Source of the DNA: Rhodospirillales bacterium
GTDB taxonomy: Bacteria; Pseudomonadota; Alphaproteobacteria; Rhodospirillales; Casp-alpha2
Length of the DNA stretch: 7,816 nt
Direction: 5' to 3'
NCBI GenBank assembly: GCA_018664265.1
Contig: JABJOR010000161.1
Span: 1-7,816, forward strand
The notes below the pieces were generated by a model. That model was not told the origin of the DNA. It saw only the letters and a list, made by a program, of their open reading frames with translations, and did no database searches. How positions within the stretch are numbered: the first letter of the stretch is position 1; each line of letters opens with the position of its first letter. Shown here in pieces: positions 4,622 to 7,816 of this stretch. Position numbers and translations under genes: made by a program.

Positions 4622-5377
4622 CTAGGCCCTTATGACACGCTCAAGAACATCACAAACCATGTTATTGAACATGGGATCTGTTGAAAGGCCACCTTCAGCG
4701 GGGATCAGAACGGATCGTTTGCTCCTGGTTAAGGCGGCTGGAAAATCTTCACTAAAGTGCCTGCCTGGAGTTAAAAATAAACCTTCAGCAATGACGGGCC
4801 CTTGAAGGTCAGTAATAATAGTTTCCGGCGTGGGGACTTGTTCCAGATAGCTTTCATTGACGCTTGTAAATATATTTCTGGATCGAATGTATTGTGCCAT
4901 TTGTTGTGCGGATTGTGCTGATTCAGGATGCTTCTCAGAGCCGTGCGCAACCAATATCAAATGTGCATCGCGAGAGCTTATCCCGTTTTTATCGGCACAT
5001 ATAGTAGCGCGTTTTGCAACCATATCAGCAAGTTCCGTGTGCTGGCTAATAGGCTGTAAGCAGTTGATTCGACTGGTTGTATTTTCCTGAAAATTTTCAA
5101 TTAGCCCCGGCAAAATAGTTCTTAAAGTAAAGCCACGGCACATGAAAATTGGCAGAATAATAATCCTGGTGATGTTTTTTGGTAAAACCGGATACAAATC
5201 CTTATCTTGACCAGACGCTGACCATGGGCATACGACGCCCAGTCCAAACCGTTCCTTGATAAGGGAAATAAGCTTACCTCTGTCTCCCCCTTTATTACCA
5301 GGCCAAGCAAGAATAAGCGCCGTATTCTTCAAATCAGTGGCTGGTGCCTGAGGAGAGGTTGATTTTGTTAAAGACAT
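4622..5377 (-). CDS. CbiX-like sirohydrochlorin chelatase family protein in heme d1 operon
   Basis: CbiX/SirB-type class II chelatases insert Co2+ or Fe2+ into sirohydrochlorin in the cytoplasm. This protein has 251 residues and reads as two related halves. The C-terminal half keeps the active signature LILVAHGSEKHP (140-151) with H145, and FLTPGRHFSEDFP (201-213) with H207, the two His positions used for metal insertion. The N-terminal half has the matching strand and loop pattern (ALILAWPGNKGGDRG, 20-34; IIILPIFMCRGFTLRTILP, 72-90) but no HGS or GRH histidines, so it seems catalytically degenerate. The start ATG (5377) has GGGA upstream and lies inside the 3' end of nirN, giving a 44-base overlap and likely translational coupling. 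In a nir operon the natural role would be supplying siroheme, the iron precursor of heme d1. This is inference; a cobalt chelatase role for cobalamin is the alternative. Confidence 0.82.
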   Translation of the reverse strand: MSLTKSTSPQAPATDLKNTALILAWPGNKGGDRGKLISLIKERFGLGVVCPWSASGQDKDLYPVLPKNITRIIILPIFMCRGFTLRTILPGLIENFQENTTSRINCLQPISQHTELADMVAKRATICADKNGISSRDAHLILVAHGSEKHPESAQSAQQMAQYIRSRNIFTSVNESYLEQVPTPETIITDLQGPVIAEGLFLTPGRHFSEDFPAALTRSKRSVLIPAEGGLSTDPMFNNMVCDVLERVIRA

Positions 5378-6671
5378 TATATTTTCCCGAAGGCCTGCTC
5401 ATAGGTATCCGTTTAATTTCTGCGAAGGTTTCAGCATCATAGACAATGATAGCGCCATCTTCTTCCCATATGCTGACCAATGCATAGCGACCATCACGTG
5501 TAAACTCTACATGAGCGACGGTCTGATTTGGTTCATGACGTAGTGTTTTGACAATTTCCAGTGTCCGCTTATCGATGATGTGGATGGCATCTTTATGCTC
5601 GCCGAAGAAAACATCAACCCAGAAATATGGGGTATTTTCATGAGAGCGTGCGAAGAACCCAGGTCCCAGGGTTTCAATGCGCTTTATTGTTTCCCATGTT
5701 TCCATATCGATTACGCTTATTGTTGCATCTTTAATATGGGGCGTCGCCATGACCATTCGATCTTGATAATCAAAGACGATTCCAGAACCAAGGTGTGGCA
5801 TGCCGCTTAGATCAAGGTCTGAGACTTTCTTGCGTACGTCCAAATTATAAACCACGCCTTTCTTATCTGTACGACTGGCACCGATAACTTCAGCGTAGTA
5901 GGGGTCAAAGAAGAAATCATCCATATAATCATCTACAGCAATACGGCGGATACCAAAGGGTTGTTCGCTGACAATAAAGCCTTCTTCTTCACCTTTTCGG
6001 AAATTGTGCTGAAAGCCTTCTCTGATCGGCTCAGCTTCTGGATCATAGGATAATTCCCAGATTTCCTTGATATCTTTCAGGGCAGCAATGAAACTTATGC
6101 GGGGTCGGGCATCATAAACGGCGCTAACACGTGACGTGACGCCTTCTCCATCGGCTACAGGGATGTAGCGAAACGGTGTCAGGTCTTCTGCATTGAGAAC
6201 GACAATGCTATGGGGCAGGTAATTGCCCACCATGACCCATTTGCCATCAGATGAGACGGCTATATTTCGAGTATTGATACCGGCGCGAATTTCCGCAACC
6301 TGCTTTAAGCTCCACAGATCATATTTGCTAACCCACCCATCCCGGGAACCAAAATAAACATAGCGGCCATCGGGAGAGTACTTGGCCCCACCATGTAGGG
6401 CAAAATGTGATTTAAATCGCCAGATTGGATCAAATGTATCACCATCAAGGATAGTAACGTGATGGTCTCCGGTTTCTACAACGGTAAACAGGTTTAACAG
6501 GTCTGATTGGTGGACTGGCTTATCTGGTAGTGTGGAGACGGCATTATGAATTGTTTGAGATGGAATGATTTCATCCATACCCCATTTTGGAATACTCGGT
6601 AGTGGGGTGTAGATTAGTTCCACCAGAGCATTGATTTCGGCTTCACTGAGTTTATCCCCATGGGCGGGCAT
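5334..6671 (-). CDS. NirN C-terminal fragment: cytochrome d1-type propeller
   Basis: From the ATG at 6671 this frame gives 445 residues. The frame itself is open from 6737 and encodes KKKAVGVIANGREATQ just upstream, so the ATG is an internal Met rather than a natural start; it has no Shine-Dalgarno. Residues 1-24 (MPAHGDKLSEAEINALVELI) are the last part of the cytochrome c domain. The d1 propeller shows repeated blades such as YSPDGRYVYFGSRDGWVSKYDLW (98-120). Histidines that could serve in heme d1 binding are H93 (ALHGG), H293 (GMPHLGSG), H344 (RSHEN) and H387 (AHVEF). Without the upstream part it would lack export and heme c. Confidence 0.8.
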   Translation of the reverse strand: MPAHGDKLSEAEINALVELIYTPLPSIPKWGMDEIIPSQTIHNAVSTLPDKPVHQSDLLNLFTVVETGDHHVTILDGDTFDPIWRFKSHFALHGGAKYSPDGRYVYFGSRDGWVSKYDLWSLKQVAEIRAGINTRNIAVSSDGKWVMVGNYLPHSIVVLNAEDLTPFRYIPVADGEGVTSRVSAVYDARPRISFIAALKDIKEIWELSYDPEAEPIREGFQHNFRKGEEEGFIVSEQPFGIRRIAVDDYMDDFFFDPYYAEVIGASRTDKKGVVYNLDVRKKVSDLDLSGMPHLGSGIVFDYQDRMVMATPHIKDATISVIDMETWETIKRIETLGPGFFARSHENTPYFWVDVFFGEHKDAIHIIDKRTLEIVKTLRHEPNQTVAHVEFTRDGRYALVSIWEEDGAIIVYDAETFAEIKRIPMSRPSGKYNVFNKINLSSGTSH

Positions 6672-6904
6672 CTGGGTTGCTTCGCGGCCATTGGCAATAA
6701 CGCCGACAGCCTTCTTTTTCGCAATCGTTTGAGGTTCTCAGGTAATAATGCTGGTCCTATACTACCTAAACGTTCTGCCTGATGGCATTCTGCACAATAG
6801 GTTTTATAGTTCTCTTCTGCAGATACATCTGCCTGAACAACATGGCTGTTTGAAATAACCCAAAACAAGCCAAGGCAAATGATAATTTTAAGCAACTGTC
6901 GCAT
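6614..6904 (-). CDS. NirN N-terminal fragment: signal peptide and cytochrome c heme site
   Basis: This frame encodes 96 residues. Residues 1-25 are a Sec signal peptide: basic MRQLLK, then a hydrophobic core IIICLGLFWVI, with cleavage probably after VVQA. A heme c site CAECH follows (37-41), then GSIGPALLPENLKRLRK (47-63), a conserved stretch in NirN-type proteins. From residue 64 on (RRLSALLPMAAK... to the stop) the sequence is Arg/Pro-rich and has no family likeness. It is the out-of-frame tail after the frameshift. As written it would be an unstable, truncated periplasmic heme peptide. Confidence 0.7.
   Translation of the reverse strand: MRQLLKIIICLGLFWVISNSHVVQADVSAEENYKTYCAECHQAERLGSIGPALLPENLKRLRKRRLSALLPMAAKQPRCPPMGINSVKPKSMLWWN
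6711..6729 (-). other. Frameshift site in nirN
   Basis: On the - strand the sequence is TTGCGAAAAAGAAGGC. Frame one reads L R K R R and then loses homology; the frame one base back reads K K K A V G V I A N G and matches the family. One extra A in the A5 run (making A6) would join the frames. The A run is at + strand 6715-6719. The frames share open sequence from 6737 down to 6614, and the conserved residues on both sides place the switch here. Confidence 0.8.
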
Positions 6905-7816
6905 AAGAGCCTTTCCCGTACGGTGTGACTTTCAGGCGTTCTTCACCATCTTCTACACCGATTTCATAATCTTCAAGATAACAACCCGAATCTTCGGCCC
7001 ACGGATCGCCGGTAAGCTGTAATGCACGGGTGCGGGTGTTCCCGCCGCATATATCAAAATGTTCGCATTTGCCACATCGCCCACCGATGGTGCGTGGTGA
7101 GGCCTTCAATCCGGCCATGATCGGATCAGATGTATCAGGCCAAATTTCAGAGAAAGGACGGTCCTTCACATTGCCCAATTTGTATTGCCACCAGAATGTA
7201 TCGGGGTGGACTTCGCCCACATTATCGATGTTGGCAACATTAACACCGGAAGCATTACCACCCCACTGAACAAGCTTGGCGCGAATATGCTCGGCCTTTT
7301 CAGGGAAGTGCTCCTGCACCCAGTGATAGAGGTAAACACCGTCAGCGTCGTTATTGCCGGTAACAATTTCTTTATCTGAACCATCGCTAATGTTTTTGTA
7401 TGCGGTCTCAAAGAGCAGGTTCATGGCTTCACGGGTCATGATGTGGTGGGCATCTTCACCACGGTTTTTATTTCCGCGCCCGCCATAATTCAGATGTGAA
7501 AGGTAGAATTTATTAACATCTTCATCTTCTGCCAACTTGAGCAATTCAGGAAGGTCATGCGCAGTTTGTTGTGTAATACAGAACCGCAAGCCAACTTTCA
7601 GGCCCCGGTCACGACACAAACGTACCCCATGGAGGGATTCATCGAATGCGCCTTTATGACCACGGAAATTGTCATGCGTTTCACGTAATCCATCCATGCT
7701 GATGCCTACATAATCGTAGTTTACAGCGGCAATTTGTTCGATATTCTCTTCCGTGATCAATGTCCCATTGGTAGACAGGCCAACGTAGAAACCTTTTTCT
7801 TTTGCTCTATGTGATA
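6888..7816 (-). CDS. nirJ: NirJ, heme d1 biosynthesis radical SAM protein (3' part; 5' end outside window)
   Basis: NirJ is a cytoplasmic radical SAM enzyme that removes two propionate side chains from 12,18-didecarboxysiroheme during heme d1 synthesis. The frame is open to the right edge, and about 308 residues are visible of a protein usually near 390. The N-terminal CxxxCxxC cluster motif therefore lies outside the window. Visible features are GFYVGLSTNGTLIT, YVGISMDGLRETHDNFRG and GLKVGLRFCITQQT, all typical radical SAM barrel strands, then FWWQYKLGNVKD and a C-terminal auxiliary cluster motif CGKCEHFDIC followed by a Cys 22 residues later (CX2CX5CX21C by my count). A TTG at 7760 is an internal Leu, not the start. 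The stop (6888) lies inside the start of nirN, giving a 17-base overlap. The related Ahb proteins of the alternative heme pathway are a less likely identity, given the adjacent nirN. Confidence 0.92.
   Translation of the reverse strand, partial: SHRAKEKGFYVGLSTNGTLITEENIEQIAAVNYDYVGISMDGLRETHDNFRGHKGAFDESLHGVRLCRDRGLKVGLRFCITQQTAHDLPELLKLAEDEDVNKFYLSHLNYGGRGNKNRGEDAHHIMTREAMNLLFETAYKNISDGSDKEIVTGNNDADGVYLYHWVQEHFPEKAEHIRAKLVQWGGNASGVNVANIDNVGEVHPDTFWWQYKLGNVKDRPFSEIWPDTSDPIMAGLKASPRTIGGRCGKCEHFDICGGNTRTRALQLTGDPWAEDSGCYLEDYEIGVEDGEERLKVTPYGKGSYATVA

Follow-up and report, generated by a model that had tools for sequence, protein, structure and literature searches.

In the passages of PMC13168839 concerned with heme d1 synthesis, the final step is assigned to NirN and placed in the periplasm, and PMC7242693, in its remarks on this protein, has NirN introduce the double bond of heme d1; the latter also cites, in its reference list, a 2019 article about the crystal structure of NirN. 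As far as its account of gene deletions goes, PMC3694632 describes less NirS activity in nirN deletions of P. aeruginosa and P. pantotrophus, together with an altered NirS cofactor in the P. aeruginosa deletion, postulated by its authors to be dihydro-heme d1. Intact cd1 absorbs near 638 nm, and a value of 624 nm is reported there for the deletion. The titles and abstract openings of papers on nirN with frameshift or pseudogene mention no natural loss of the gene. Single-base indel errors are a known class in draft and metagenome assemblies, and the slippery heptamer motif and dnaX-type bacterial -1 frameshifting are likewise known systems.

The locus described here contains a nirN gene read in two frames. 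It lies in the window, the whole stretch of DNA that was analysed (7,816 bases), which is the entire contig C544 of a draft genome (G000; 3.28 Mb, 603 contigs, 78.4% complete). As the last gene of heme d1 synthesis, nirN has a predicted role in finishing the heme of nitrite reductase. Its features are given below, with reference to an unbroken database protein, P0003.

A nirN gene read in two frames

5334..6904, minus strand: full extent of nirN (dihydro-heme d1 dehydrogenase), in two frames (window letters, ORF translation, structure match of P0003)
6614..6904, minus strand: nirN N-terminal piece, 96 aa, with hydrophobic start, CAECH heme c motif and out-of-frame tail (ORF translation; PF13442, 21.3 bits)
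5334..6737, minus strand: nirN C-terminal open frame, with the end of the cytochrome c domain and the d1 propeller (PF02239, 367.3 bits)
6715..6719, minus strand: A5 run (T on the plus strand), point of frame change (direct reading; frames compared with P0003)

The first 63 or so nirN codons stand in one frame and the remainder in another. The minus-strand open reading frame 6904-6614 (96 aa) continues after CAECH to ...LPENLKRLRK, followed by the out-of-frame tail and a stop at 6614. The second frame spans 467 aa from stop to stop (6737 to 5334), or 445 aa from its first ATG at 6671, and contains KKKAVGVIANGR... plus the d1 propeller. Both frames were read directly in the window, in agreement with the initial annotation, which had placed CAECH with the signal peptide in one frame and the rest of nirN in the other and had set the frame change at the A5 run (T5 at 6715-6719 of the plus strand); the interval that it gave, 6614-6741, corresponds closely to the overlap of the two frames (6614-6737). 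The unbroken nirN of a same-genus genome (G001) aligns to both pieces in different frames (residues 3-80 and 71-533), and both pieces also match P0003, so the split goes beyond chance. The frame break is hence confirmed in the given letters.

Several lines of evidence bear on the identity of the gene. The cytochrome d1 family PF02239 matches the C-terminal piece with 367.3 bits (cut-off 25.5), and PF13442 matches the N-terminal piece with 21.3 bits, below its cut-off of 27, and reaches 41.4 bits in the unbroken P0003. The closest solved chain to P0003 is 6rtd_A (567.8 bits over residues 19-523), far ahead of the best NirS (102.7) and NirF (88.1), which upholds the name nirN given initially. 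The structure listing labels 6rtd_A 'Cytochrome c'; we take the chains 6rtd and 6rte to be NirN of P. aeruginosa. With regard to the traits of NirN, the window presents an N-terminal c-type heme domain with a CxxCH motif and a putative export signal (CAECH behind a hydrophobic start) as well as a C-terminal d1 propeller (PF02239); a single uninterrupted frame is found in P0003 and fails in the window, where there are two.

P0003 emerged from a protein search with the C-terminal piece against about 5.8 billion proteins, considered for the best 120 of 7,999 matches. It has 523 aa and is listed on one contig of 46,757 bases, as compared with 7,816 for the window contig. The C-terminal piece is identical to it at 445/445 residues, and the N-terminal piece shows no difference over residues 1-63 and diverges beyond them. 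The source of P0003 is marked '-', the sign used for the window's own proteins, although P0003 is not encoded there letter for letter. The next protein among the best 120 of 7,999 is 83% identical. Judged by this identity, the source of P0003 is likely the same organism as that of the window. Adding one base had been expected to restore a NirN of about 524 residues: the single full-length protein is borne out by the unbroken P0003, and the length has to be corrected to 523.

The search with the N-terminal piece returned two proteins, both of them other cytochromes in a normal frame. The broken form of nirN was not found elsewhere in either protein search, but this absence says little, because the window's own pieces are missing from both searches too. 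For the NirJ part encoded in the window, the closest match is 86% identical among the best 120 of 7,992, and the 46,757-base contig was not recovered among these; that contig may end near nirJ, which would possibly account for the missing closer NirJ. At the DNA level, the unbroken allele had no match in viral contigs, and the nearest nirN in a scan of relatives' contigs was 83% identical (best 80 of 170 relatives); both scans may have omitted entries from the genome of the window itself or from one very close to it.

The nir cluster and nirN in related genomes

Two further genes accompany nirN in the window, in the minus-strand order nirJ 3' part, nirN and CbiX-like gene:

6888..7814, minus strand: 3' part of nirJ, truncated where the contig ends, with its start on contig C482 (TIGR04051, 483.1 bits)
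4622..5377, minus strand: CbiX-like chelatase gene, overlapping the end of nirN (PF01903, 48.6 bits)

The TIGR04051 score of the nirJ part (483.1 bits) is below the cut-off of 515.45, in keeping with its being a fragment. Of the related loci that extend 900 bases or more beyond nirN (n=79), 17 show a CbiX-like frame after the gene, and the CbiX-like chelatase may be a source of siroheme for heme d1.

Contig C482, also from G000, carries the final part of a d1-domain protein (nirS), a NapC/NirT-type protein of 580 aa, a plastocyanin-like protein, nirE (uroporphyrinogen methyltransferase), a small cytochrome c (nirC-like), a d1-propeller gene (nirF), a fused siroheme decarboxylase (nirDL), two more siroheme-decarboxylase-like genes (nirG and nirH) and the start of nirJ, the nir names being assigned from domains and gene order. 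The 580-aa protein (locus L111, 576-2318) joins a NapC/NirT-type domain (PF03264) to an ethylbenzene-dehydrogenase-like domain (PF09459), and its gene adjoins the plastocyanin-like gene, between nirS and nirE. Because the nirJ halves match one G001 protein (residues 2-112 on C482 and 122-429 on C544), C482 and C544 probably adjoin each other in the genome and are separated within nirJ; about nine codons remain unread between window 7814-7816 and L111 7436-7437. In the comparison with G001, the end of nirS, nirE, the nirC-like gene, nirF, nirDL, nirG, nirH and both ends of nirJ are each in one frame in G000, so no sign of decay of the nir pathway was seen among the genes compared.

The survey of nirN in relatives comprised 103 loci, 23 from whole genomes (L002-L024) and 80 from the scan of relatives' contigs (L031-L110). 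Some contigs were counted twice (e.g. L002 and L031), and the more distant propeller proteins (L025-L030) were excluded. The gene is in a single frame in 99/103 loci, with coverage that starts no later than residue 55 and reaches at least residue 500 in P0003 numbering. Among the other four, nirN is cut by contig ends in L021 and L023 and holds an in-frame TGA at about residue 191 in L018, all three being in a single frame at the break site, and the match in L024 ends short of that site. Over the 15 codons at the site (n=99), a run of exactly five A occurs in 24 loci and one of six or more in nine, all in frame.

The genome with the TGA in nirN (G053) has another in nirF (L252), one in each gene and both at the relatives' tryptophan. 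A change of genetic code, suggested by two TGA codons at conserved tryptophans, is unlikely, because release factor 2 is present, with its one TGA as in two relatives, and no inner stop is seen in three oxidase genes or in a helicase gene. G053 is left with two nonsense codons within one nir cluster that a code change is unlikely to explain. In another relative, a nirF-like match (G049:C74:9834-10928) holds one in-frame TAG.

Possible explanations: draft drop-out, recent loss and recoding

To gauge errors in the draft, 118.6 kb of G000 (20 contigs plus the window, of 603) were compared with 2.26 Mb of G001. Across 59 genes (48.4 kb summed), nirN was the sole split gene, and the stretches compared held 145 A or T runs at least five bases long. 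Since nirN alone is split despite these runs, errors are rare in G000, and general homopolymer noise across the draft was rejected (one split in 59 genes). Left out of this comparison were a second split flag (L129), raised by a piece that precedes the start of the gene concerned, and 12 genes whose matched stretch contains stops: in 11 the stops precede a Met at match residues 8-82 and were taken as pre-start, and the twelfth has its stop almost at the end of the match (residue 274 of 277).

A second gene in two frames was detected on another contig of G000 (C534; L259, about 640-760). It encodes cytochrome oxidase subunit I and changes frame near base 698; no residue is lost and the two frames overlap by one base, the pattern that a one-base loss would leave. 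The change is outside any run of four or more and falls in what is presumably a highly conserved part of the protein. PF00115 has five matches in G000, and other oxidase genes of the draft are in one frame, so this could be a draft error or a true mutation. By their match tables, PF00005 (60 matches, listed in part), PF00171 (9), PF00873 (4), PF02515 (6) and PF00562 (1) presented no clear two-frame split in this draft. A PF00171 match on C353 holds one TAG, a PF00873 match on C484 ends at position 886 of 1021, and the PF00562 match on C168 and several more are partial.

The reading that we prefer, with a probability of about 0.6, is that the nirN split is a single-base drop-out in the draft assembly, the A run having been called one base short. 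It is favoured because the break is a lone one between flawless frames, a near-twin is unbroken, the pathway neighbours are intact and a second gene of the same draft is in two frames. The living cell would carry an unbroken nirN, and NirN would be exported, loaded with heme c and convert dihydro-heme d1 to heme d1 for NirS. From the break, P0003, the unbroken relatives and the second two-frame gene, all of which are observed, we infer that the fault lies with the draft and not with the strain. Several points weigh against a drop-out. The only split among the 59 genes is nirN itself, and the case on C534 is possibly a true mutation. P0003 could in principle have been produced by a frame-mending gene caller, and its 46,757-base contig may match the locus over a limited stretch, the best NirJ being 86% identical (best 120 of 7,992).

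The single split in 59 compared genes, which marks errors as rare in G000, counts at the same time in favour of a true recent loss, in which one strain lost a base in nirN and near-identical strains keep the gene whole. Two otherwise flawless frames are the expected look of a very young loss, and PMC3694632, where it deals with the deletion, indicates that P. aeruginosa tolerates the absence of nirN, with lower NirS activity. Such a loss would explain nearly as much as a drop-out and is a serious rival, which we hold to be possible but the less probable of the two. It is weakened by the second apparent one-base loss in G000, in the oxidase gene on C534, and to a small degree by the occurrence of the broken form in no relative or other protein found, a weak point with the window's own pieces unlisted as well. 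The choice between a knockout and a sequencing error put forward initially was well posed. If it is not a draft mistake, the nirN break is an ordinary broken copy, and the finding is an ordinary one.

Programmed or low-level -1 slippage on the A run, yielding full-length NirN from the split gene, had also been offered and is very improbable. The A5 run is exactly at the frame change, and a lysine tRNA could re-pair there one base back. Against this, no shift is needed in 99 of the 103 related loci, and P0003, otherwise identical, is unbroken. The comparison of A-run lengths in relatives, proposed as a test of recoding, turned out against it: the frame break is not kept, and runs of five A (24/99) and of six or more (9/99) occur in frame. 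Direct reading of the nirN site confirms the earlier remark that the classical two-site slippery heptamer is absent. The same holds for the lack of a convincing downstream stem, since no stimulating structure beyond shuffles was found 3' of the A5 run: the 90 downstream bases have a folding energy of -22.3 kcal/mol, shuffles averaging -23.83 (z 0.47), and 138 of 200 shuffles fold as well. Recoding was rejected on the single-frame relatives, the unbroken P0003 and this fold.

Were the loss true, the C-terminal piece alone would be expected to have neither export signal nor heme c, and a less efficient NirS containing dihydro-heme d1 would be expected. The initial annotation had foreseen dihydro-heme d1 or a poorer cytochrome cd1, which fits the nirN deletions of PMC3694632; the effect would be partial, because NirS of the deletion stays catalytically active in the account given there. 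We consider it unlikely that the window represents a denitrifying alphaproteobacterial lineage that is naturally nirN-null, living beside intact near-twins with a cd1 nitrite reductase on dihydro-heme d1. If true, it would offer a natural test of the dependence of denitrification on NirN. Before another copy of the locus has been examined, it would be premature to equate a lone frame break in one draft with loss of heme d1 finishing or with recoding.

Comparison with known systems

The window gene shares the two-domain layout of P. aeruginosa NirN, with P0003 aligned over residues 19-523, and likewise stands among nir genes; it differs from that NirN in a frame interrupted once, inside the cytochrome c domain. 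A putative nirN-null lineage would be the natural version of the laboratory nirN deletion. With dnaX -1 frameshifting, the window nirN has in common an A run at the shift point, whereas it has neither the two-codon slippery heptamer nor the stem, nor is the shift conserved among relatives. The nirN break would probably belong to the class of draft indel errors: the gene is one base short between flawless frames, has an unbroken database version and is accompanied in G000 by another gene in two frames.
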